DNA of 56,396 nucleotides, taken from an uncultured bacterium (lineage in GTDB: Bacteria > Babelota > Babeliae > Babelales > Babelaceae). The stretch is taken from positions 1 through 56,396 of the forward strand of contig CAIKXM010000034.1 of NCBI GenBank assembly GCA_903831405.1, written 5' to 3'. The notes under the pieces were generated by a model that ran no database searches, was not told where the DNA came from, and worked only from the letters and a program-made list of their open reading frames with translations. How positions within the stretch are numbered: the first letter of the stretch is position 1; every line of letters begins with the position of its first letter. Both the position numbers and the translations under genes were made by a program. This document shows, in pieces, positions 14,012 through 50,661 of this stretch.

Positions 14012-15544
14012 ATGAAAATACAAACATATGCCATGCTTTTGAGCTTGCTGTTATGCCTATCAAAAATCGTTCTTTGCAATGCCCAACAAGAAAGTGTTAC
14101 AACTGATGCACAAATTACCGCTGGACTAAAAATTAAAAAAGATATCCAGCAGCCGCAACCATACACCCAAACAAGTGCATGGCTCAGCTTAAAAACAAAC
14201 AGAGAGTTACGGGATGCACTATTTCCCTCCTATGCCAAAGAACCCTATAAAACCATTATAGAAAAAGCAGTAGTACAAGAAGAAGCCTATCGACTTTCAC
14301 ACTATGTCTTTTATTATACAACTGTCCCGGCAATCAAAATTATACGAGATCTTTATACAGAGCTATATCATATACAATATAAAAAGAGACTTACACCAGG
14401 TTTCCCATTTTTACTACTACAAACAATGGATAAGAAAAGCTTTTGCGAGCTGTATACTGATACAGAGGTACAATCAGTTATTAATGCAAAAATTGCAACC
14501 AATATATCACTGTTCTCAAATATCGAGAGCAAAAAAACAGCAGTTAACTACTTTGTGCATGCACCAAAAAACACACAACTCGAGCCCTGGCATCTTGAGT
14601 TTATTGCAACACAGCTCTCTATGCCTGCAAGTAGCATTACACACTATATACAGCAGCTACAAGAATTATATAATAAATATTTTACGCATGCAGCGCCTGT
14701 AAACAACAATACACTGCTGCAAATTTTTATCCCCAAAGAACAAACTGCCACAAACACGTACATTACAATGAAAGGCTTAAGCTTTTCGTGGGATCCGGGA
14801 GTAATTGTTAGAATTCTTTTAAACGAAGCAATCAATGGTGCTATCATCAGCTTGGCAGGTGAAGAATTATTTACCAATGCTTTCAAGCGTCTGGTATGGG
14901 TACCTGATGTATTGGGGCAAGACACTAATATCACTAGTAAACCATATCAACAGTTCAAACATGCCGTTGATACAGACTTAGTAGAAACAGCCGCCTTTAA
15001 AACAGCCCCATTTTTGCAAGCGTTTATGACAACGCCCTATATTATTGCCCATAGCAATAATGCAATAGAGGCAAAAATACTATTTTCTACACAGCAGGTA
15101 GTTATTGAGCCAGAGAGTACTATTTTATTTTTTGAATATTCTACGCTCCAAGAGAAACAGAACAGTGAATATTATCAACAGCTACATGCAATAGCTGAAC
15201 AGATAATACTATCATTGCCAGTACACAGTGTATCGACAGTGTCAGAGATACTATCAACACCAGAGACATCAATAGTACCGGCAATACCAACATCAAAGAT
15301 GTTATCAGTACCAGAGGTCTTGGGGGTGCCATCAACTCGGGCAACTACAGAAGAACTATCAGCACACAGCGTATCTCCAGAAACAGTAGATCAAAGAACA
15401 CCCATAAGAGCATTAGCAACACAGGCAAAAGAAAAAAATAGCGATCGAGAAAAAATACAAGCAGAGATAGAATCAATACGTCAAAAAATAAAAGCAGATA
15501 TGATAACAATTCGTGAGTCAATGCGAAAAAGCAAGACAACATAA
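14012..15544 (+). CDS. Large exported protein of unknown function with coiled-coil tail
   Basis: This 510-residue protein has a signal peptide (MLLSLLLCLSKIVLCNA). AAAAAAGGGAAT lies before its ATG. Residues 50-395 look globular and mixed alpha/beta, Tyr- and Thr-rich. Residues 395-455 are a low-complexity Ser/Thr/Val/Pro linker with VPAIPTSK- and TPETS-like repeats, and the last 50 residues are a charged helix (EKIQAEIESIRQKIKADM) that probably forms a coiled coil. I see no catalytic motif. It converges with the recombinase gene, and 119 bases without an obvious terminator separate them. Confidence 0.65.
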   Translation: MKIQTYAMLLSLLLCLSKIVLCNAQQESVTTDAQITAGLKIKKDIQQPQPYTQTSAWLSLKTNRELRDALFPSYAKEPYKTIIEKAVVQEEAYRLSHYVFYYTTVPAIKIIRDLYTELYHIQYKKRLTPGFPFLLLQTMDKKSFCELYTDTEVQSVINAKIATNISLFSNIESKKTAVNYFVHAPKNTQLEPWHLEFIATQLSMPASSITHYIQQLQELYNKYFTHAAPVNNNTLLQIFIPKEQTATNTYITMKGLSFSWDPGVIVRILLNEAINGAIISLAGEELFTNAFKRLVWVPDVLGQDTNITSKPYQQFKHAVDTDLVETAAFKTAPFLQAFMTTPYIIAHSNNAIEAKILFSTQQVVIEPESTILFFEYSTLQEKQNSEYYQQLHAIAEQIILSLPVHSVSTVSEILSTPETSIVPAIPTSKMLSVPEVLGVPSTRATTEELSAHSVSPETVDQRTPIRALATQAKEKNSDREKIQAEIESIRQKIKADMITIRESMRKSKTT

Positions 15545-25757: not shown

Positions 25758-26486
25758 TTAGTTGCTAAACTTAAGATGATATACATAGGTCGGTGGAACA
25801 TTGCGCAAAACAAATACTTTCTTTTTTTCTATTGCCGTTGCACAAAAATCCTGCACTTCTTTCTTTACTAATTTGAGACAATCACATGACGCACCCCAGG
25901 TAAAGGTAGTCTTGATATCCGGCAACCAGCGATACTCGATATATGACCAATGACCACCAGGAGCAAGAGAATCACGTATCGCGAGCAGGCAACCTTGCAC
26001 AAGCAGTAGTGGAAATGCATTAAAAGGCAATGTAGTAATCACCACGTTATACGAATGCTTCTGGATGTTGTACAGATCTCTAAATTTTTCAAAACCACAG
26101 GCATACACGCGAACACGCGCGCTGCCCTTTGCGCTATACTCTTCGCTCTCAACCATACTGGTTAATTTTGCTGCAAGCTCACTATCAGACTCAACAATAT
26201 CATACACATCGCCAGGACGAAGGTTCTGTAAAATTTGACGAGTAACTACACCCGTGCCAGCACCAGCCTCGAGAATATGATAGGGAGTAGTAGTAACAAC
26301 ACTGTCTCGATTGCACACATAACGCGTCAGCTCGCGACAGGTATAGGGCGATGAGGGTACCACTGAGCCAATCTCATGGGGATGTTTTACAAATTCTTTT
26401 AAAAAAAGCTGCCACTCAGAAGGAACAACAAAACAACAAAACGAGAGAACGCTTAACAGCGCGAACACATAGACAGATTTCTTCAT
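25758..26486 (-). CDS. SAM-dependent methyltransferase, phospholipid N-methyltransferase (PmtA)-like
   Basis: This 242-residue protein has an N-terminal hydrophobic segment (VFALLSVLSFCCFVVPS) that could be a signal or membrane anchor. Next comes FLKEFVKHPHEIGSVVPSSPYTCREL, the characteristic entry of PmtA-type phospholipid methyltransferases, then the SAM-binding motif ILEAGAGTGVVTRQIL, the acidic strand VYDIVESDSELAAKL, and the NPPY-like position as TTLPFNAFP. PmtA-type enzymes methylate phosphatidylethanolamine towards phosphatidylcholine at the membrane; a related rRNA dimethylase-like fold is the main alternative. It overlaps dnaB by 4 bases (ATGA) and abuts ruvC, so it is translationally coupled to replication genes, an odd partnership. 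Confidence 0.72.
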   Translation of the reverse strand: MKKSVYVFALLSVLSFCCFVVPSEWQLFLKEFVKHPHEIGSVVPSSPYTCRELTRYVCNRDSVVTTTPYHILEAGAGTGVVTRQILQNLRPGDVYDIVESDSELAAKLTSMVESEEYSAKGSARVRVYACGFEKFRDLYNIQKHSYNVVITTLPFNAFPLLLVQGCLLAIRDSLAPGGHWSYIEYRWLPDIKTTFTWGASCDCLKLVKKEVQDFCATAIEKKKVFVLRNVPPTYVYHLKFSN

Positions 26487-27853
26487 TCTTCAGCCTCATC
26501 AAACAGGGTTAATTCTTTTTGAAAGTTCATATATATAGTTCCCGTTGGACCGTTTCTATGCTTACCAATAATAAGTTCGGCAGAAGAAGGATTTTCGGTA
26601 TCAACGTTATATACAATGTCACGATATAAAAATAATATTAAATCAGCATCCTGCTCAATAGCACCAGACTCACGCAAATCCGAGAGTAATGGCCGACGCT
26701 CAACACGACTATCAACCGCACGCGAAAGCTGCGACAGCGCAACAATAGGAATTTGCAGCTCTTTTGCCAAAGCCTTAAGCGAGCGAGAAATTTCGGACAC
26801 TTCTTGGTGACGATTCTCATGCCGCTTGGATGAATTAATCAATTGGAGATAGTCAATCACCAACATATCCAAGCCTTTTTCCATCTTCAGTTTACGCGCT
26901 TTTGTTCGTATCTCAAGAATACTTTGCATTGGTGTGTCATCTATATATAGCGGCATGGACGCAAGCCGCGATGCGGTTGCCGTTAATTCAATCCACTCAT
27001 CTGAGGTAATAGTTGCCGTACGAATAGCCTGATGATTAATGCGAGACTCACTTGAGAGCAGTCGGAGAGCAAGCTGCTCCGCGCTCATCTCGAGTGAGAA
27101 AAATCCAACGTTGCGACCAGCCTGAACTGCTTGCGTTGCAAAGCGTAGCGCTAAGGCAGTTTTACCCATTGAGGGACGTGCAGCAAGAACAATCAAATCA
27201 CCCTTCTGAAAACCACTGGTAATTGCATCAAATTTTCTAAACCCTGTCGAAACTCCCGTGATACCTTTTGTCATTCCATTGATCTCAGAGAGATGTTGGA
27301 ATGTTTTTTTTAACCATACGGTAAGCTGAACAAATGATTGAGATGACCTTTTTTGTGCAATTTGAAAAATCGTCTGCTCAGCCTCATCAAGAACCGTTTC
27401 TAAGTCTTTATCATTGCTGTGATAACACTGATTGATTATTTTCGAAGCCGAAGTAATAAGCTCGCGCAAAACATACTTCTCACGAACTATGCGCGCATAA
27501 TGTTCTACAAGACCAAGTGCGGGAATATTTTCTTGCAAAGAAAGTAAATATTCCATACCGCCAACCTCATCAAGAACCTGCTGCTTTGATAATTCATCGG
27601 CAACCACAATACTATCAAGTCGTTTGTTATGTTGGTATAAATCAACAAAAACACGAAACAGCGTCCTGTGTGATGGCACATAGAAATTTTCTACAACCAA
27701 TATTTCGGATACGATAACAATGTTCTCATCATTTAAAAGTAATGAACCAAGAACAGCGCGCTCAGCATCAATATTATGAGGCAAGCTTTTGCCCAAAAAT
27801 TTTTCTGCCGCTATAATGCGAGTTTTTTCTTGTACTACTTTTTCCGTATACAT
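26483..27853 (-). CDS. dnaB: Replicative DNA helicase DnaB
   Basis: This 456-residue hexameric helicase unwinds DNA at the fork. The N-terminal domain begins SLPHNIDAERAVLGSLLL. The RecA-like domain shows Walker A RPSMGKTA (residues 226-233), then FFSLEMSAEQLALRLLSSES, Walker B LVIDYLQLI and the arginine-finger region RESGAIEQDADLILFLYR. No intein is present. I use the ATG at 27853; a TTG three codons earlier is possible. It follows rplI by 230 bases and overlaps the next gene by 4 bases. The rplI-dnaB order is common in bacteria. Confidence 0.96.
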   Translation of the reverse strand: MYTEKVVQEKTRIIAAEKFLGKSLPHNIDAERAVLGSLLLNDENIVIVSEILVVENFYVPSHRTLFRVFVDLYQHNKRLDSIVVADELSKQQVLDEVGGMEYLLSLQENIPALGLVEHYARIVREKYVLRELITSASKIINQCYHSNDKDLETVLDEAEQTIFQIAQKRSSQSFVQLTVWLKKTFQHLSEINGMTKGITGVSTGFRKFDAITSGFQKGDLIVLAARPSMGKTALALRFATQAVQAGRNVGFFSLEMSAEQLALRLLSSESRINHQAIRTATITSDEWIELTATASRLASMPLYIDDTPMQSILEIRTKARKLKMEKGLDMLVIDYLQLINSSKRHENRHQEVSEISRSLKALAKELQIPIVALSQLSRAVDSRVERRPLLSDLRESGAIEQDADLILFLYRDIVYNVDTENPSSAELIIGKHRNGPTGTIYMNFQKELTLFDEAEE

Positions 27854-28083
27854 TTTTACCAATCAGTCGATTATAATATACAATGCTATTTTCTTTATTT
27901 TCTCAATGTACGTATGTATAGCCAAGCTTCTGTATATACCAAGATTCTTTTAGTTTTATACAAATAGTATGGGCACAAAAGCATATATATCTTTATATAG
28001 TAAAAAAGTAACTAAAAATATTTTTTTAAAACCCATGCGCCAATAATTTTAAAAAAAGTACCCATTCAATAGCTACTACCCTG

Positions 28084-28527
28084 CTATTCTGCCATAACTT
28101 TTACGGTTACTGATGGCTGCAATTGTGAAGACAATTTAATAGTTACACTATGAGAGCCTTTTTCTTTGATGTTTTTGCCAAAAATCACTTGATTTTTAGA
28201 TATTCCAACCCCATTTTTTGCAAGCTCATCAACAATTTCTTGTGCGCTTACGGCACCATACAGCTTACCGTCATTATGAATTGGTTTTTTGATTTTGATT
28301 TCAATTGAACCAATTTTTTGTGCTAGCAATGATGTTTTTGAAGCAACTTCTTCTTTGCGATTTTCTACCAAATGAATTTTTTGTTTATAATTTTTTTCAT
28401 TTTCGGGAGTAATTTGGATAGCCAATTTGTGCGGAATAAGATAATTGCTTGCAAAGCCTGCAGACACCGTAATAATTTCTCCTGCAATACCAACTTTTTC
28501 TACGTCTTTTAACATATATACGTTCAT
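28084..28527 (-). CDS. rplI: 50S ribosomal protein L9
   Basis: This 147-residue ribosomal protein binds 23S rRNA with its N-terminal domain (MNVYMLKDVEKVGIAGE, with the typical GFASNYLIPHKLA) and extends a long helix to a C-terminal domain. I start at the ATG at 28527 because GGAG lies 5 bases upstream and the family starts here; an ATG at 28542 would add five residues. The usual length is about 148. It precedes dnaB on the same strand. Confidence 0.95.
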   Translation of the reverse strand: MNVYMLKDVEKVGIAGEIITVSAGFASNYLIPHKLAIQITPENEKNYKQKIHLVENRKEEVASKTSLLAQKIGSIEIKIKKPIHNDGKLYGAVSAQEIVDELAKNGVGISKNQVIFGKNIKEKGSHSVTIKLSSQLQPSVTVKVMAE

Positions 28528-28621
28528 ATAAGCTCCATCCATTTTTAACTACATAGCTATAAAAAAAACCGTTAACGAACCTTAAGTATAAACATAAAAA
28601 AATTCTTCTCAAAACAATTTT

Positions 28622-28975
28622 TCAAATAACTCTCCTGCAATTAAATATAAGCGCATTGTTGCAATAAACATCTCCTATACATATTTTTTTATCTACTGTT
28701 TGTATTCTAACGCAAAGTAAAGAGTCACCTCTAGTATACAGACTTGTTGTTTTTTTAAACCAAAAAATCTTTTCATTACACACATCACCTGATTTGCTAT
28801 GCTCTTTCATATAGGCAGCTAATGCGTATTCAAACATATTTTTTGCTACTCGATTTTGACGATGTTTCTTAATAATCATGTGCATGCTTTGTATATGTAT
28901 TCGATACATACCCGCATATACAGCGAGCATGCAACACAAGACCGCCCCCAGTAATCCCGCCATAAATACATGCAT
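28622..28975 (-). CDS. Small membrane-anchored protein in a pseudopilin cluster
   Basis: This 117-residue protein starts at the ATG at 28975, set by AGGGGA 7 bases upstream, only 4 bases past the stop of the upstream pseudopilin gene. One N-terminal transmembrane helix (FMAGLLGAVLCCMLAVYAGMY) precedes a basic helical stretch and a Cys-rich C-terminus (VCNE, LCVR, ICIG, YCNN, FNCRR). It lacks the G-F-x-x-x-E prepilin cleavage motif, so it may be a diverged minor pilin or an assembly factor. Position and size suggest it works with the two pseudopilins. Confidence 0.6.
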   Translation of the reverse strand: MHVFMAGLLGAVLCCMLAVYAGMYRIHIQSMHMIIKKHRQNRVAKNMFEYALAAYMKEHSKSGDVCNEKIFWFKKTTSLYTRGDSLLCVRIQTVDKKICIGDVYCNNALIFNCRRVI

Positions 28976-28979
28976 ATCA

Positions 28980-29465
28980 CTATCCCCTGCAAAGAATAAC
29001 AAACTGTTTTTTGGACTTTCCTACAATAGCAATACGCACAAAAGCATTCGACTCACTACTGCCACGATCGATACACAAAGACGTACATACACCTAATATC
29101 TTTTTTTGAGTCGGTTTCCATTGCTGCGGGGCAGCAGAAGCAGGGCCTACCTCACTGTATAAGATATTGCCCCGTTTTTTTACACAACGATGTACTCCAT
29201 CCGCACACTGCCACAAGGTGCTCGTTTGCTTTGATATGGTAAGAACAACCCCTTGCGAAGATTCGATAGCAGTTAAAAACTCTGAGAGCTGCTCGATCAT
29301 GCAACAATCTTCAACAAAAAATCGTCCATCGATAAGAAACGCATCGTACGCGGGCATAATGCGATACATACTGTACATACATAATGAAATAATTAGCAGC
29401 CCTATGCTTGCCGCAAGCATAAACTCCAATAATATAAACCCTATAACCCTTTTTTTTGGCTTCAT
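28980..29465 (-). CDS. Type IV pilin / type II secretion pseudopilin-like protein
   Basis: This 161-residue protein starts at the ATG at 29465. The prepilin peptidase motif is clear: a short basic leader MKPKKRVIG, then FILLEFMLAASIGLLIISL, with Glu at position +5 of the mature protein and a hydrophobic helix behind it. The remainder is a small globular domain with several Cys (EDCCMIEQ, QCADGVHRC, VCTSLCID). A GTG four codons earlier is an alternative start. Such proteins form the minor pseudopilus tip in type II secretion or competence systems. It lies in a three-gene leftward cluster; no ATPase or platform protein is in the window. Confidence 0.75.
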   Translation of the reverse strand: MKPKKRVIGFILLEFMLAASIGLLIISLCMYSMYRIMPAYDAFLIDGRFFVEDCCMIEQLSEFLTAIESSQGVVLTISKQTSTLWQCADGVHRCVKKRGNILYSEVGPASAAPQQWKPTQKKILGVCTSLCIDRGSSESNAFVRIAIVGKSKKQFVILCRG

Positions 29466-29479
29466 TATATTGTCCACGT

Positions 29480-29911
29480 TTATTGTCCACGCCTATCGCA
29501 GAAAACATATTCTGCTTTTTTTACCAGTTTATTTCCGCTTTTATTAACCAAACTTTTTTTATTTATCAGAGAAGATGAAGATATGGTCACTATATACACA
29601 CCACGCTCTCTATCATGAGTAATCACACGGGCAAGAGTATCGTTAGTACTAGCGCTAACACGAGAGAGAATCGATGACAAATCAGCAGCAGTAGACAAGT
29701 GTAAACCTATTTTTTTACTATAATTATCAAACAATAATTCTTGCATATATTCTTCCCTGCATTCACAAAGCGCAGATGAATATGCGCGATACAAATACGT
29801 TGCAGCGCTTATTACCACCAACAAAATTACGGCAGCTTGGGCAACCTCAATCAAGAAGAAACCTTTTGCTTTGTGTTGATTGTTAAAAAATTTACTATGT
29901 AAGCTAGTCAT
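29480..29911 (-). CDS. Type IV pilin / pseudopilin-like protein
   Basis: This 143-residue protein has the prepilin leader ending in KAKG and the mature start FFLIEVAQAAVILLVVISAATYLY, with Glu at +5 and an uninterrupted hydrophobic helix. The leader is 17 residues, longer than most. The globular part is short with Ser-rich strands and a closing VFCDRRG. It is first in the pseudopilin cluster, 14 bases upstream of the next gene's ATG, and lies head to head with the exported J-like gene at 30002. Role inferred: a minor component of a type II secretion or type IV pilus machine, fitting the large exported proteome. Confidence 0.75.
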   Translation of the reverse strand: MTSLHSKFFNNQHKAKGFFLIEVAQAAVILLVVISAATYLYRAYSSALCECREEYMQELLFDNYSKKIGLHLSTAADLSSILSRVSASTNDTLARVITHDRERGVYIVTISSSSLINKKSLVNKSGNKLVKKAEYVFCDRRGQ

Positions 29912-30001: not shown

Positions 30002-31087
30002 ATGAAATACTTTTTGTTTTTATCGATCATATTACTTTTTGTCGCACAAGACATTTCGTCAAAAGCAACAATAAGCACAGACCCCAAAAGCATATCAGGG
30101 AATACTAATGGTAAAATCCCCAATATGAAAGACATGAAAGAAGTACTCGACAAAGAACCGCTCGACCTCAAAGAAGACGATGGCAAAGTCACCCCCGAAG
30201 ATGTCGAAGAAATGCAAAAATTTATTGAAGGACTTAGTGATACTGAGCGCGCTGAACTCGAAAATCTGGGACGTGAAATTATCAAATCTATGGACCCTCA
30301 AGAATTACAAGAATTTGCAGGAGCGCTGGGTATTTCATCTGACGAGCTATTAAACGAGGCAAATAAGCCGTTAGAAAAAGCACCTATCGAAGCGGTTAAG
30401 CCCGTAGAAAAACCAGTTATTGACGTCAAAGTATCCGGATCATCAGCATCGCTAAAAGTTCGTGATACAACCGCCGAAACCGTAGTCAAAACGCTTATCA
30501 AACATCTCACTTCGCTACAAAGCAAAGAGAGTGAAATAACAAAAGCAAATAAAAAAATTGCATCACATAGCACTGATATCGTAAATTTAATCACCTACCT
30601 CAATACCATTGTCAAAAAATCGTACTACAAGCAACTAGTCAGTGAAAAGTATCTTGATTTGTTTAGACTGCTCGAAGGATTAAACAAAATAGTTGAAAAA
30701 TATGAACCTCGCATTGTTATTGCAGCTCAAAAGAAAACTGATACAACATCTCCCTACGCAATACTGACTGTTTCGCCTACAGCAACACACAAGGAGATAG
30801 AGACTGCATATAAAAATCTTATGGCGAAGTACAGCGATAGTGAAGAGAATGAAGACGCCCTCACCATGCAAACAATTGAAGAAGCGTATGCAGAAATTGG
30901 CGATGAGAAGACACGCAAGCAGTACGACAGAGAACATACCGCGCAAGAAAGCTATGATCAAAAACTTTCTGGCGAAACAAAAACAGCATTAAGTGAAATT
31001 GCAACGGAATTCGAAAAAGTTTTCTCACGAGAAGATATTTTGAGCTCCATTGAAGAATTTATAAAAGCATTCGAGGTTGCTGCATAG
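30002..31087 (+). CDS. Exported J-domain-like protein lacking the HPD motif
   Basis: This 361-residue protein has a signal peptide (FLFLSIILLFVAQDIS). Residues 50-125 are acidic and helical; 155-245 form a helical domain shared with the next gene; 250-309 read as a J-domain: SPYAILTVSPTATHKEIETA, then AYAEIGDEKTRKQYD. The loop that should hold His-Pro-Asp reads KYSDSEE (YSD at 277-279), so it cannot stimulate an Hsp70 in the normal way. A C-terminal helical block (residues 315-361) is also shared. AAAAGGGCG precedes the ATG. Exported, HPD-less J-like proteins might bind J-domain partners or host chaperone targets (inference). Confidence 0.75.
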   Translation: MKYFLFLSIILLFVAQDISSKATISTDPKSISGNTNGKIPNMKDMKEVLDKEPLDLKEDDGKVTPEDVEEMQKFIEGLSDTERAELENLGREIIKSMDPQELQEFAGALGISSDELLNEANKPLEKAPIEAVKPVEKPVIDVKVSGSSASLKVRDTTAETVVKTLIKHLTSLQSKESEITKANKKIASHSTDIVNLITYLNTIVKKSYYKQLVSEKYLDLFRLLEGLNKIVEKYEPRIVIAAQKKTDTTSPYAILTVSPTATHKEIETAYKNLMAKYSDSEENEDALTMQTIEEAYAEIGDEKTRKQYDREHTAQESYDQKLSGETKTALSEIATEFEKVFSREDILSSIEEFIKAFEVAA

Positions 31088-31117
31088 TTAGCAAACTGTA
31101 TTTTTTAAAATAACAGT

Positions 31118-31167
31118 AGAGAATAACGGATAGAAAATAATCACTTCTATCCGTTATTCTCTGTTTT
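31118..31167 (+). terminator. Terminator after the first J-like gene
   Basis: An 18-bp perfect stem (31118-31135 with 31145-31162) with a 9-base loop is followed by GTTTTT. It lies 31 bases past the stop at 31087, so the two J-like genes are probably separate transcripts. Confidence 0.85.
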
Positions 31168-31265
31168 TAAAAGAAGTTTGTTACGTAGTTGAACTTCACC
31201 CCCGCCTGGAGTATCTTGGGGTACAACAACCCCTGGCAACTTTTTTAATGAAGGATACGACGCAC

Positions 31266-33680
31266 ATGAGACGCTTTTATTTTCCCCTGTATGTTTGTTT
31301 TGCTTGTACGTTTATCACCGCTGTCAATACTAATAACAACCCTAACAACACATTTACCGTTCCTATTATTGATACGGTAGCACAAGCAATCAATACCAAA
31401 AATAATACCGAAAAAATATCGCCGATAGAAGAGCTAAAATCGCTCCAAAACAATACCGCTCATAATTCGAGCATCGACGAAAATAATACTGAATATAGCG
31501 AAACTCAAGACAGAGAAAATACAGAAACACAAGAATACAATTCACTACAACAAGAACTTAGTGAAGAGAGTCCATCTTTTTATTCCTACAAGACCTCAAC
31601 AAGTGATAACCTTGCCGCTCTGGTCGAAAAGCTAGAGTCACTCAATCAAAAAAGTGCTTCACTATTCTTTAGAGAAAATAAACTAAAGTCATGGCATCAA
31701 GAAATTGCTGACATTATTCATTATGTACGCATTATAAACAAAAAAGAGCATAACAAACGCCTTGAGCAAGAATCATACAAACCGCTACACGCTGCCCTTA
31801 AAGAACTTACACAAACGCTTGCCACCTACGAGCCATTAATAATCATTCCTGATATAACAAAAATCCTCCAAGAATCCCCCTACGCCATTCTTGGAGTAGA
31901 AAAAAATGCAACAGACGAGGAAATTGCCGCTGCATATCAAAATTTTTATCAGCAGTACACGGCAGAAAATATACAGCAACGCATGCAACAAGAGAATGCA
32001 AGCGAAAAAGACATTAAGCGCGAAAAGAAAGCAGGGGCAATTGTTCTTGCAACCGTACAGCAGGCCTATGACAAAATAAAAACAGAAGCAGACAGAGCAG
32101 CCTATACAAGCCATGAAGGAGAAGAGCATAGTGACCAGTTATCAACAGAGTCCAAAAATGCACTGCAAAAAATCACCGCAACGCTTGGCCGCCTGCTCTA
32201 CTCAGGGCAATTACTAACTCAGATAGAAAAATTTATCAAAGAATACGAACCACAAGAACTCGAAAAGAAAAAAGCATTAACAAAGTCTGAGCTTGAACGT
32301 ATTGGTGAAGAAAAAATTCGCCTCTCACAACGCCCAACCCCCTCTCAAGCTTCGCAGTCAAGAGACTATGGGTATGGCTATGGCAGTGGAGCTGATTATT
32401 ACCCTGGCGGGGATTATGGAAACTACGGCGGAGGTAGCTATGGTGGCAGTTATGATGGCTATGACCCATATAGTCTAACACAACCAGTATCAGGCGGATC
32501 AGAGATGAGTGGAAAAGGCGGAGGCGGAGCTTCGGGAGGTCCCGGTTCTACAGACAAAGGCAAAACTGACAAAGATAAAGACAAAGATAAAAAAGAAGAA
32601 GCAACTCAATTGAGCGAATCAAAAGAAAAAAAAGAGATCAACAAGAAATTTACAAAAATAGAGGCAAACCACCATCAACTTAATAAACTTCTTTCATCAT
32701 TAGACAAATTAGAAGCAGATGAATTAAAAGCAAGGCGAACGGCGGCGATAGAGAGTGGCAGAAGTCAAACACCACCCGTAGGAACAGACGGACCACCGCC
32801 AGCACCAATTGTGATTGGACCCCCAACACAAAAAGAAAAAGATGCAAAAACGTTAGTAGATGACCAAAAAAAGGGTATTAATGATGCAGCGAAAAAGCTC
32901 ACTGAGTTGTACACAGAGCTATTGGTTGATATCAAAAACGCGCAACAAGCTCAACCAGGAACAACAGTAACAGGCCTCACACAAAACGAGTGGAATGCTT
33001 GCAAAAATAAAATGAACAACTTAACAGGCTTAAGCAAATATGCTATTGAAAAGCTTAGAGAAATAAAACACCCTAGAGATGCTGAAACCATTGCAATGGC
33101 TATTAACGAAGTACGAACATATCTAAAACTACCTCTTATTTTGGGACCAAATGCTACTGATGAAGCGAAAGCTGGCACAAAAAATACACCAGCAGGACCT
33201 ATTATCCTTAACCAAGCAGAAGCAAGCAGCAAAAAAAATCTGCGCACTTTTGAACAAGCTCACACAACGCTCGAAGATGCGCTCATAAACCTCGAAGAAG
33301 CTATAGAGACAAGAAGCAAAATACCTTTGGGACAATCACCAATAAAAACAATGAGATCAGACAAAGCAATTGGAGAACAAGTAGAACAACTCGCCCAAAA
33401 AGCTCTAGAATTAGTTCAAATATACGATCGACTGAACACCAACAACCTCGCCCCAAAAGAAATCGCTCTGTACAAAAAAGCCATGGAAAAATTTGAAGCA
33501 AAAATAATAATGATCATAGAACAACTTGCTAATAGAAAAGAAACCAAATCCATTGCTCAACAACTGGAATCAGCCATTGATACTTTCAGAGAAAAACACC
33601 TTGACATGGATCGCATTAGAGCACCAAAAGAAGAGACAGATTCTCAAGAAGATGCTACAACACCCCAAGAACAAGGGTAA
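31266..33680 (+). CDS. Large exported J-domain-like protein lacking HPD, with Gly/Tyr-rich linker
   Basis: This 804-residue protein starts at the ATG at 31266, because AAGGA lies 10 bases upstream and the signal peptide (RRFYFPLYVCFACTFITAV) then begins at once; an ATG at 31248 is possible. Residues 25-110 are Asn/Glu-rich. About 110-200 is a helical domain, and about 202-285 a J-like domain (SPYAILGVEKNATDEEIAAA, then VQQAYDKIKTEADRAAYTS), where QQYTAEN replaces the HPD loop and an insertion is present. About 365-430 is Gly/Tyr-rich (DYGYGYGSGADYYPGGDYG) followed by a KDKDKDK run. The rest is charged helix. The three-part core is paralogous to the previous gene. Confidence 0.75.
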   Translation: MRRFYFPLYVCFACTFITAVNTNNNPNNTFTVPIIDTVAQAINTKNNTEKISPIEELKSLQNNTAHNSSIDENNTEYSETQDRENTETQEYNSLQQELSEESPSFYSYKTSTSDNLAALVEKLESLNQKSASLFFRENKLKSWHQEIADIIHYVRIINKKEHNKRLEQESYKPLHAALKELTQTLATYEPLIIIPDITKILQESPYAILGVEKNATDEEIAAAYQNFYQQYTAENIQQRMQQENASEKDIKREKKAGAIVLATVQQAYDKIKTEADRAAYTSHEGEEHSDQLSTESKNALQKITATLGRLLYSGQLLTQIEKFIKEYEPQELEKKKALTKSELERIGEEKIRLSQRPTPSQASQSRDYGYGYGSGADYYPGGDYGNYGGGSYGGSYDGYDPYSLTQPVSGGSEMSGKGGGGASGGPGSTDKGKTDKDKDKDKKEEATQLSESKEKKEINKKFTKIEANHHQLNKLLSSLDKLEADELKARRTAAIESGRSQTPPVGTDGPPPAPIVIGPPTQKEKDAKTLVDDQKKGINDAAKKLTELYTELLVDIKNAQQAQPGTTVTGLTQNEWNACKNKMNNLTGLSKYAIEKLREIKHPRDAETIAMAINEVRTYLKLPLILGPNATDEAKAGTKNTPAGPIILNQAEASSKKNLRTFEQAHTTLEDALINLEEAIETRSKIPLGQSPIKTMRSDKAIGEQVEQLAQKALELVQIYDRLNTNNLAPKEIALYKKAMEKFEAKIIMIIEQLANRKETKSIAQQLESAIDTFREKHLDMDRIRAPKEETDSQEDATTPQEQG

Positions 33681-43700: not shown

Positions 43701-44658
43701 CTCAGTCACCACAACACTTACCTTAGGTAGAGCTGGTCAAGCAGTAACTGTTGCAAGTACACTTAACGTTGATAGCGGTATTATTGATAGAACCGCCGCA
43801 GGCACGCTTGCTATTGGCGGAACCAATGTAACGACACTCAGTCTTGGTAGGAGTGGACAGACAACCGCAATTCTTGGCAATCACACCATTGCAGGAACTA
43901 CCGTTGCAAGCGGTTCGATTACGCTCAACGCTGCAAACGAACTTCGTTTTGCTGATAGCGATTCAAGTAATTACGTTGGATTCAAGTCAGGGGCAACAAT
44001 AGCAAGCAATGTAGTGTGGACGCTTCCTACAACCGATGGAACCCTTGACCAGGCACTGGTAACTAATGGCTCTGGCACTACCAGTTGGGCAACATTGCCA
44101 CGTGTTGAAGCTCTCGACTACTTTTTAACCCCTCCCTATAATACACAAAATAGCGGTGCGGCTGCAACGCGCGTTGCACAAACTTCATTCGAAGGAGCTA
44201 TATACACACTATATCGCGATGTTACCTTCAGCAAAGTAGGGCTACGACTTACCGCATTCACTGCGCCTGGCAGACTGTCAATGTATTTCTATCAAACACC
44301 TACCGGTGCTGCAAGTAGCGCCGGATCACCTGCAGCACGTGTTGCAGGTATAACGAGTGCAACACCAGTCAGTGGTGTCAATACCATAACACTTGATTCG
44401 CCAGGCTCTGCAACACTCAAGGCAGGCATTGTCTATGTTCTGTGGGGAAGATCTTCAGCTACTGGTGCCTTTACGCTGAGAACACTCTCGACACTCGATA
44501 TGGACTTATGCAACCAAAATATGATAACAGGTACCGCTCCTATGACCTATAGTACTGGAATTGCAGCTAACACAACCCCTGCTACTTTTAATGCAGCAAC
44601 ACAGTCGAGCGCTTCTTCCAATGATGTAACCCCTATACTGCGATTAACTAACTTTTAA
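40672..44658 (+). CDS. Giant exported tail-fibre-like repeat protein 2
   Basis: This 1328-residue paralogue of the preceding gene has the same signal peptide, the same VFGGQPYITYIPKDVHITGD block, the same LKTGDSMSGNLVM, a diverged globular region and a shorter repeat stalk. The stalk contains TGVLPIVNGGTN, SSTLAIGDSVTTTLTLGRAG and FADSDSSNYVGFKSG words. The conserved C-terminal domain (about 165 residues from ALDYFLTPPYN) ends LRLTNF, as the partner ends MRFTNF. Several repeat units are closer to those of gene 1 than the flanking domains are, suggesting gene conversion. AAAAAAGGAG precedes the ATG. Likely a surface fibre with a variant head or mid-region (inference). Confidence 0.8.
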   Translation: MKWFINQRKTIARISLLFLISQISLPLLGESVHDQPDRAPRHDYENLPEDVFGGQPYITYIPKDVHITGDLTVDGSLITPGGSGLFVLKTGDSMSGNLVMSNQKSIYLQEPTTNGTNTINLQAPSSITAPYTITFPASQGDQYGAPINDGSGNLTWQNPCQMVAAIDGDMTGFVNIADSTISFDGTSNTFAIAPTASAYTIYCHGKEVIIDTAKELIIDADVTGPHYIFFAPPDALHPLHYLKEYYAFPGFDAGILISVIYWDGYEQTAVLTTNSRHISKCDLTWLTWVRNIIGTQHRDGLTMYGYKQNSDLDANIQVGLYPGTIVAGELVNTITDGPITAPLVPFQQPIAYPASIPILYHDEELPLHFHKDPATLFPYKNNGAGTRLNFNQYNAELNVWQQTQATDGYYVAYWICATSSMIQPIICIQGERQDATIDDAQLNNNFLSLTFGDFPFEILRPLYLMIMQTSDSYTNSMKAIIRDVTDLRAQTLIDLRDMLPISHSTLVGVANTNSHPADAIATVGLSGLLSGQTDVQESLSVLGNNIDQGLNTTSSPTFAGLRSTLPILADGGVNVTGPGGSMNIGTANTSNIHIGDSTTPHFTSDIYIGTSGTTIHMPGTVIQPIIIHPEIVGQYIDLNLTTPPRYIVSTSNSGMRICDGINPSGAQITTNNDSTGWILSIPTTLSSGIMTLSPGSAGFSITGGSAPFTIVGGATPFTINQGSHDPLTLGTANGLTLDGVGGQVLSLQAASSLLTGALTSTDWNTFYNKQTSTPTLNALAPFASTGIMVMTNATTPAFAARTIIGTTNQISVANGNGVSANPQLSLPQDIALTSNPTFASMTLGNSVAGKLTLREASANGTNYVALQSPPALASNITLTFPSSTPTNGYYLQTDGSGNLSWSAVSLTSGITGVLPIVNGGTNSATALSNSRIMVSSGGAIVEASALSNGMVAQTAANTFTARTITGASNQVSVANGDGVSGNPMLSLPSTVILTGASSINSSSSTLAIGDSVTTTLTLGRAGQAVTVASTLNVDSGIIDRTAAGTLAIGGTNVTTLSLGRSGQTTAILGNHTIAGTTVASGSITLNAANELRFADSDSSNYVGFKSGATIASNVVWTLPTTDGTLDQALVTNGSGTTSWATLPRVEALDYFLTPPYNTQNSGAAATRVAQTSFEGAIYTLYRDVTFSKVGLRLTAFTAPGRLSMYFYQTPTGAASSAGSPAARVAGITSATPVSGVNTITLDSPGSATLKAGIVYVLWGRSSATGAFTLRTLSTLDMDLCNQNMITGTAPMTYSTGIAANTTPATFNAATQSSASSNDVTPILRLTNF

Positions 44659-47775: not shown

Positions 47776-50661
47776 ATGTTATACAAAAAAATCGCACTAC
47801 AGATAATTATTCTGAGCACCTGCATAGCACTTGCGTTGCACGCCGAGCTGCCACTGACAAAGATAAAGGGTTTAGCGGAACCTTTTAGAGGGTCTATAGT
47901 TACCGAACAACTTACTACTGACAGAAGACCTGCGACTGCCGCTGCACTTATAGCAGAACAGAAAACCTCTCAAGAAGATTCTGTTGATGACAATATCTTT
48001 TCACCAATCTATGGCGCTCTTGCATGGCATTCGCCCTATCTACTAAATCTATGGCAACTTGATAGCGAGTCAGCAACTGCCAATCTGGTGCACCAACTCT
48101 TTAACCTGCAATTTGATGGGGTAACCTTTGATATCTCTGGCATACCTGGCAATACCATTAGCCATCTATCATGTGAAAACCTCGGCTATATCATTGGGTT
48201 GCTCTACAACTACGAACAAGCAATGAACGCGTATCAAAAGCAAGTAGATGAAAACACGGCGTTGGTCAAGGAAGAAGAGCTACGCAGAAAAAAAATAGCA
48301 CAACAAGAAGACCCCTCTAGGCATGAAGCGCAACAGGGCGAAGATTCTCCACGCCAAGAACAAAGAACACCGTCACCTCAGGGCAACAAAGTAGGTAAAA
48401 AGTCGCCAAGACCAACAGAAAAACAAAGAGAATTTTCAAAGTACAAAAATGAAGAACCGCTCAGAATAAAAAAAGAGCTTACCGATAAGCTTACTGCATA
48501 CCTTGATACACTAAGCCCAGCACTAATTAAGCACAATATCGTCACCTATTATACCATCCAACTGGCTCATCTAGATGCAGATATTGCACGTGAACAAGAC
48601 CAAGCAAAAATACAAGCATTGCAACGCAAAAAAGCTGATTTAGAAAGTAAATTAGTTGCTGAACAATCTTCTGATAGCAACACTATTACTCTAAGATCTT
48701 ACAGTGAAGGCAAAAATTCTTTTGTTAATGATGTGGTCAACTCGATGCTTGATACACGCTACCTGCCACATAACACAACATTGCTTTTACTTGCATGCAT
48801 GTGGAAGAAGGCAAATAGCTTTGAAGATATCATGCAATATCTATATGGCGTTTATACTGCGCTTGATAACAAAACAGCACTTTTTACCGATACAATCAAT
48901 GATGGATTAAAAATCAACTCATCATCAACACATCTTTTCGAAGCGCAAGTTATTGATATACCATCATCAACGATAAGCTATCAAGCTTTTAACTCTGTTC
49001 TTATGCCAATAATTACACAGCAACCATACACCGCTGCAGAATATCAAAAACTAATTACAACAAGTCCAACAGATTTATATAAAAATCTTGCTGATTATAC
49101 ATTCGCCTTCCTTGGCTTTGATATCTTTGGCGATCCGACTGCTACGCTGCTGCCACCCGAAGTTACTATGATTATGAAAACACAGTATGGCGAAACAACC
49201 TTTCCTGATTGCGGAGAAACATCACTGCTCAACTTTTTTGCAGCAGTTCTCTACAACCCTCTAGAAAAAAATTGGAATCATCAACTTCTCGATGCAATCA
49301 ACGCAGATCAAAAACTCAAAAAATTCTTCCATGATTTTTCACCAAGCACACTCAATACACAACATGCACATAACAGATGGGCGCAGGTTTTATCGGGCAA
49401 AGCAGGTGTTGACTATACAAGAGCAAACAGATGCGAAATTAATGCCGGCATCGACAATATGCTCAAGGTTATTGCAGCGCTTGTTCCTGGAGTAAGCACC
49501 TTTGATGATCTCGCGCGCATACTAAACAGTAATGGTGTACAAATTAATTTTAAAACACCGGCACAACCGAATCAAAATTTCACAACAATACCTATTACAT
49601 TAACCAAAAACGACACAAAACTTGTTCTTGAGTGGTTATTTAATCCTGGCCATTTTCACCTATCTTTTCCACCAAAAGCAGTGCAAAACGATCCACGGCC
49701 AATGCTGTTACACGCTATGCCTTTTAATATCGCCAGACTAACTGACGTAGCTATACAAGCTCTACTAGCTCATTATAATAACAATCAAATAATCACCAAT
49801 TATTACCAAGCTTTTTTATATGGTATACAAGACCCTAAATTATTATTACAAGTAGTTGGTACTATTACACAATGGGAAAAAGCACCAGTATATACAGTGT
49901 TATTACTGCGCTCTCTATATAATGCATTATCAAAAATACAACTACCTGATGATGATCAGGAAATGTATCAAGAACAATTTTGGAGGACAATTAACACAGC
50001 ATTAATACCGGTAGAAAATATCGTATCAACAAAAAATATAACAACAGCAAAAGATATACTTAAACCGTCGTATTTAAATGCCCTTTTATCACAATCGACA
50101 GCTGCAATTGAAAACATAGATATTGAAAAAATAAAAGACATTATAACAACTATACATAATGAAAAATATAGATGGATCTCAATAGGAATCATACTACGAC
50201 AAGATCAATCCGTTCCTATTGTACAACAACTATACAAATTAATTACATCAATAATACCACCCTTCCAAGACGATGAGCTGAAAACTGATTTTATAGAAAT
50301 CATATTACAAAAGGATCCAACCATTCCAGCTGTAGCACAATTATATAAAATAATTAAACAAATTATACCGACCATAGAAAAAGACTATATGAAAAGATCT
50401 ATTATACTCGCAATATTAAAACATGACCCGATTAATCCAATCATCCTAGAATTATATAATCTTATTGAGCCAATGTTATCAACTACACTTGTCGAAGACG
50501 GTGGCATTTTACAATCATTACTAATGCAATATCAAAAAAATCAAACGATACCTGTTTTGCAAAGATTACATAACATCATATCACCTAATCAACCACAGCC
50601 TATTACTACTTATACACCAACTACAAGACACGACGGTCCAAATATCGATGAAGTTGATTAA
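47776..50661 (+). CDS. Large exported protein of unknown function with C-terminal helical repeats
   Basis: This 961-residue protein has a signal peptide (LQIIILSTCIALALHA) and AAAAAGGAG before the ATG. A region at about 70-160 is globular; 165-235 is a charged low-complexity linker (Glu, Gln, Arg, Lys); 235-630 is mixed, with a conserved-looking TTFPDCGETSLLNFF (Cys479, Glu481) and a later NPGHFHLSF (His626, His628). The Cys and His could be a catalytic pair, but that is speculation. The C-terminus (about 795-945) holds roughly four helical repeats of about 37-40 residues with the pattern IILxxDxxxPxxxQLYKLI. I do not recognise the family. Confidence 0.65.
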   Translation: MLYKKIALQIIILSTCIALALHAELPLTKIKGLAEPFRGSIVTEQLTTDRRPATAAALIAEQKTSQEDSVDDNIFSPIYGALAWHSPYLLNLWQLDSESATANLVHQLFNLQFDGVTFDISGIPGNTISHLSCENLGYIIGLLYNYEQAMNAYQKQVDENTALVKEEELRRKKIAQQEDPSRHEAQQGEDSPRQEQRTPSPQGNKVGKKSPRPTEKQREFSKYKNEEPLRIKKELTDKLTAYLDTLSPALIKHNIVTYYTIQLAHLDADIAREQDQAKIQALQRKKADLESKLVAEQSSDSNTITLRSYSEGKNSFVNDVVNSMLDTRYLPHNTTLLLLACMWKKANSFEDIMQYLYGVYTALDNKTALFTDTINDGLKINSSSTHLFEAQVIDIPSSTISYQAFNSVLMPIITQQPYTAAEYQKLITTSPTDLYKNLADYTFAFLGFDIFGDPTATLLPPEVTMIMKTQYGETTFPDCGETSLLNFFAAVLYNPLEKNWNHQLLDAINADQKLKKFFHDFSPSTLNTQHAHNRWAQVLSGKAGVDYTRANRCEINAGIDNMLKVIAALVPGVSTFDDLARILNSNGVQINFKTPAQPNQNFTTIPITLTKNDTKLVLEWLFNPGHFHLSFPPKAVQNDPRPMLLHAMPFNIARLTDVAIQALLAHYNNNQIITNYYQAFLYGIQDPKLLLQVVGTITQWEKAPVYTVLLLRSLYNALSKIQLPDDDQEMYQEQFWRTINTALIPVENIVSTKNITTAKDILKPSYLNALLSQSTAAIENIDIEKIKDIITTIHNEKYRWISIGIILRQDQSVPIVQQLYKLITSIIPPFQDDELKTDFIEIILQKDPTIPAVAQLYKIIKQIIPTIEKDYMKRSIILAILKHDPINPIILELYNLIEPMLSTTLVEDGGILQSLLMQYQKNQTIPVLQRLHNIISPNQPQPITTYTPTTRHDGPNIDEVD

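Follow-up and report, generated by a model that had tools for sequence, protein, structure and literature searches.

Two neighbouring genes of an uncultured bacterium, P1 and P2, raise the question of what a J-like domain is for when it lacks the HPD tripeptide and sits in a protein that is predicted to leave the cytoplasm. The genes were analysed within a window of 56,396 nucleotides, which is the whole of C34, one of the 50 contigs that make up a 974 kb genome (G000). The positions of both genes and their parts in the window are as follows.

30002..31087, + strand: P1, an open reading frame of 361 aa, predicted to be exported
30002..30070, + strand: N-terminal hydrophobic signal-like segment of P1 (approximate), sequence MKYFLFLSIILLFVAQDISSKA
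30140..30391, + strand: N-terminal helical module of P1, common to the family and lost in P2 (approximate; leave-out HMM)
30473..30736, + strand: helical domain of P1 ahead of the J-like insert (alignments and model)
30746..30931, + strand: J-like domain of P1, residues 249-310 (Pfam DnaJ, 40 bits; PDB J-domains)
30833..30841, + strand: P1 codons at the HPD position, Ser278-Asp279-Ser280 (alignment)
31248..33680, + strand: P2, an open reading frame of 810 aa, predicted to be exported
31599..31856, + strand: helical domain of P2 ahead of the J-like insert (alignment, model)
31872..32111, + strand: J-like domain of P2, residues 209-288, with an extended helix II-III region (sub-threshold Pfam DnaJ; model; Foldseek)
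31959..31967, + strand: P2 codons at the HPD position, Thr238-Ala239-Glu240 (alignment)

P1 consists, in order, of a signal segment, the N-terminal module, the helical domain, the J-like domain, and a closing helix; it has no C-terminal part and ends before the region matched by the C-terminal profile of the family. P2 has a signal segment, the helical domain, the J-like domain, and the closing helix, followed by Gly/Tyr-rich and charged linkers and a helical C-terminal part. The signal peptides proposed by the initial annotation correspond to N-terminal hydrophobic signal-like segments in both reading frames, and the core motifs that it quoted were likewise present in both proteins.

Several other large or exported proteins are encoded downstream. 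Directly after P2 comes a WD40 beta-propeller protein whose start is signal-like (window 33822-35075, +), and an exported, fibre-like protein of 1664 aa with long repeated segments of the GTLAIGGTNVGTLSLGRSGQTTAI type lies at 35272-40266 (+). Two further large proteins, 1328 and 961 aa long and with zero Pfam matches, are encoded at 40672-44658 (+) and 47776-50661 (+). A thioredoxin reductase with a fused C-terminal thioredoxin domain, a layout like that of NTRC, is found at 50816-52315 (-).

We examined whether the J-like fold proposed for both proteins is borne out by profiles and models. Residues 251-309 of P1 matched Pfam DnaJ (PF00226) at 40 bits (E 4e-10), above the cut-off of 27.8, and residues 211-237 of P2 matched it at 18.3 bits (E 0.0024), which is below the cut-off and does not identify the domain on its own. 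AlphaFold models of the cores, built on six sequences, contained J-type helices in both proteins, with a mean pLDDT of 81.2 for P2 and 80.7 for P1 and pTM values of 0.55 and 0.59, the placement of the two domains relative to each other being uncertain. In Foldseek searches with both core models, the top PDB neighbours were J-domains (probability 1.00, target TM mostly 0.6-0.8), none of the PDB matches reaching E<=0.001. BAR-domain matches in the same searches were dismissed as low-probability helix matches. Searched against the PDB, a profile of 22 family members picked out DnaJ chains (E 2e-10; profile positions 91-170), and the J resemblance is therefore beyond chance. As expected from the initial annotation, the cores of P1 and P2 are thus predicted to carry the chaperone-type J fold.

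Next, the positions required for cochaperone activity were compared. The residues aligned with HPD were SDS in P1 (S278-D279-S280) and TAE in P2 (T238-A239-E240), which agrees with the replacement noted earlier; the "YSD" given for P1 comprises Y277 and S278-D279. HPD was present in none of the 22 J-bearing homologues, which fall into four family-level groups (f1, f6, f10, and f11). The nearest approaches were HPS (G048) and SPD (G006), and the middle proline was retained in 15 of the 22. HPD was intact in the DnaJ of the same genome and in five other J-proteins with signal-like segments (L002:1477-2367, L003:1483-2154, L004:1498-2304, L006:1483-2568, and L007:352-1866, all on the - strand). 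The basic face of helix II is the docking surface for DnaK in known J-proteins. The net charge of this helix averaged +0.9 in the family (0 in P1 and -1 in P2), compared with +3.4 in 30 DnaJ proteins of the phylum, and was +2 to +4 in the five exported HPD-bearing J-proteins. The family thus lacks both hallmarks of a functional Hsp70 cochaperone, the HPD tripeptide and a basic helix II patch. Because they are gone, stimulation of Hsp70 by the J-like domain is unlikely; contact with Hsp70 or with J-proteins is still conceivable. Judged from relatives in sister lineages, the HPD-less state is old.

The Hsp70 complement of the genome was also inspected. It contained one full-length Hsp70, DnaK; a second was looked for in the genome and not found, the other match being limited to 103 model positions. 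For the five exported J-proteins that keep HPD, host Hsp70 could therefore be a target. Several small J-domain proteins are clustered in an f4 genome (G028; L101:6872-9958).

P1 and P2 were 32% identical over the shared core and are tandem paralogues, a relationship that the initial annotation did not mention. When both proteins were left out of its construction, the profile of the N-terminal module scored 42.1 bits for P1 and 2.3 bits for P2, and the C-terminal profile scored 17.4 bits for P2 in a region that is partly low-complexity. These results indicate that the two copies are complementary, the N-terminal module being kept in P1 and the C-terminal part in P2. The absence of HPD from both copies stands as an observation but counts as a single case because the genes are tandem duplicates; two independent losses were ruled out. 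A genome of the same genus (G005) has a single copy (L069:9675-10970, -), interrupted where a frameshift follows a run of lysines, beyond which the remainder of the C-terminal part continues in another frame. This frameshift may be a sequencing error.

To place the pair in its family, 56 proteins in 54 loci were collected by reading loci. A search with a five-row alignment gave four named loci, and the named relatives include proteins of candidate division TM6 bacterium GW2011_GWE2_41_16 and of a Candidatus Babeliaceae MAG, among others, which places the organism in Dependentiae. A signal-like N-terminal segment was found in 54 of the 56. A profile search gave matches in 98 of 101 genomes, a count that overstates the family since part of it consists of ordinary DnaJ proteins matching the J section of the profile. 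The dnaB locus of the f3, f12, and f15-f18 genomes checked (L197, L199, and L201-L206; several of these stretches are short) showed no recognisable family member, and presence throughout the phylum is therefore not established for every lineage. The J-like domain occurred in 22 of the 56 proteins (f1, f6, f10, and f11) and was absent from 34, including L179, which was counted as J-less on the grounds that its two parts join directly. In J-less orthologues, the helical stretches on either side of the insertion point were -6 to +7 residues apart. Since these flanking parts join directly, the J-like domain has been cleanly inserted and is not a decaying cochaperone. These results indicate that the family can dispense with it: the helical protein, predicted to be exported, is widely conserved, and the insert is optional.

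The origin of the insert was then considered. With an f1 J profile, the J regions of f6 and f11 scored 27.6-39.1 bits, no better than DnaJ itself at 34.5-47.1 bits; sequence proof of a common origin of the f1, f6, and f11 inserts was not reached because DnaJ scored equally well or better. In trees, J-bearing lineages appeared in more than one place, requiring two changes with DnaB alone and three with the concatenation. Given this scatter, a single origin followed by losses and several gains cannot be told apart.

The neighbourhood of P1 had been taken as a pointer to secretion, and the divergent genes are the following.

29480..29911, - strand: pseudopilin-like gene with a GFFLIEV motif, divergent from P1
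28980..29477, - strand: pseudopilin-like gene with a GFILLEF motif and a weak ComGE-type match
28622..29002, - strand: third small gene of the pseudopilin group, with no clear prepilin motif
28084..28542, - strand: rplI, a conserved landmark of the locus
26483..27862, - strand: dnaB, a conserved landmark of the locus

Most relatives have the gene next to ileS and opposite the pseudopilin-like group, an lnt-like gene, rplI, dnaB, and ruvC; in the window itself, ileS is not adjacent to P1 and P2. The family protein could accordingly be an accessory part or a dedicated client of a type II secretion or type IV pilus-like machine and be expressed together with the divergent minor pseudopilins. A divergent prepilin-like gene was among the next four genes for 40 of the 56 members, secretins were detected in 96 of the 101 genomes (drafts that may miss genes), and a type II secretion system is the only secretion system reported for Babela massiliensis (PMC4378268). 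However, the protein outlives this neighbourhood: judged from the locus only, it was kept without adjacent pseudopilins in f2 and part of f1, and at L075, L079-L082, L174-L177, and L099. Among the 101 draft genomes, no secretin was detected in G007, G016, G073, G078, and G087, and the family protein was present in G007, G016 (96% complete), G078, and G087. Neither P1 nor P2 matched a family of type II secretion or type IV pilus components in Pfam or NCBIfam. A link to secretion is thus only suggestive, and a role in such a machine seems unlikely. In the window's genome, two secretin genes lie near each other (L139 and L140; G000:C30:9864-10349 and 14437-14919), with a similar spacing in many genomes of the phylum.

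Alternatively, P1 and P2 could be exported to act on host structures. HPD-less J-domains, including exported Plasmodium examples, are classed as type IV J-proteins (PMC6681276), and the J fold and replaced HPD of P1 and P2 place them in this class. Compared at the level of the J fold only, they resemble the Plasmodium RESA group in having a corrupted HPD and in being exported proteins of an intracellular parasite. The biology would suit such a role: these intracellular parasites have large exported repertoires (PMC6561590, PMC4378268), and the same genome exports five HPD-bearing J-proteins. Many signal peptides have been reported for Chromulinavorax (PMC6561590), and a type II system and three lineage-specific DnaJ-domain proteins for Babela (PMC4378268). 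In contrast to the RESA group, however, this bacterial family has a fixed locus in most lineages examined and carries the J-like domain as an optional insert. A fixed locus and J-less orthologues are more in keeping with a core protein of the envelope than with an effector that changes fast, and a RESA-type role is improbable.

Pam16/Magmas is another case of an HPD-less J-domain (PMC8605242), and like it the P1/P2 family, which also falls outside the classical cochaperones, carries a J-like domain with a replacement of the same kind. A regulator that pairs with an HPD-bearing J-protein, as Pam16 does with Pam18, would find candidate partners in the exported J-proteins of the window's genome. 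Pam16, however, pairs with a J-protein at a translocase, whereas an exported J partner was undetected in several genomes containing the family. In G044 (98% complete) and others, which have the J-like protein, the single Pfam DnaJ match was the cytoplasmic DnaJ. With only DnaJ at the search threshold, no exported partner was detected in G044, which makes a Pam16-like regulator very unlikely in general. Lastly, local decay of a working cochaperone, for which the missing HPD and nothing else speaks, was rejected as scarcely credible, since the search for an HPD-keeping orthologue found none among the 22 and the frames of both P1 and P2 are open.

On the reading that we favour, the J fold has probably been repurposed for binding or spacing in a scaffold protein of the envelope and does not act as a cochaperone; this reading draws on the computed fold, the absence of HPD from all 22 homologues, the clean insertion, the fixed locus, and the duplication pattern. 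P1 and P2 would be copies of an exported, mostly helical protein that occupies a fixed chromosomal place in many Dependentiae (TM6) lineages. In some lineages a J-domain sits between two of its helices; this domain has kept its fold, has lost the Hsp70-stimulating HPD along with most of helix II's basic charge, and would serve as a binding or spacing module of a periplasmic or surface scaffold. In the window's lineage, the gene was duplicated into the complementary copies. The signal-like segments suggest an envelope location, and P1 and P2 may work together in the presumed scaffold. The family still resembles class A DnaJ in its J-type helices and its PYxIL, AYxxI, and RxxYD motifs, but differs in lacking HPD, in a weaker basic helix II, in an extended II-III region in most members, and in being exported; the zinc and G/F domains of DnaJ had no match in it. 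A conserved non-cochaperone role outside the cytoplasm, as the initial annotation proposed, fits the absence of HPD, the lost basic charge, and the single DnaK. Its placement in the J-like domain did not hold: with 34 of 56 orthologues J-less, the conserved role belongs to the helical protein itself, to which the J fold is an optional addition.

Literature searches, limited in library coverage and search terms, found no paper describing this protein. It is an undescribed, widely conserved protein, predicted to be exported, in a hard-to-grow phylum of intracellular bacteria. We tentatively suggest that a conserved Dependentiae protein outside the cytoplasm acquired a J-domain and retained it purely for interaction, with no part for Hsp70. 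If true, this would provide a bacterial envelope counterpart of the HPD-less J-like proteins, beside a separate set of exported HPD-bearing J-proteins that might reach host Hsp70. The natural series of proteins with and without the J insert, with HPD-bearing exported J-proteins alongside, allows the role of a J fold without Hsp70 to be asked.
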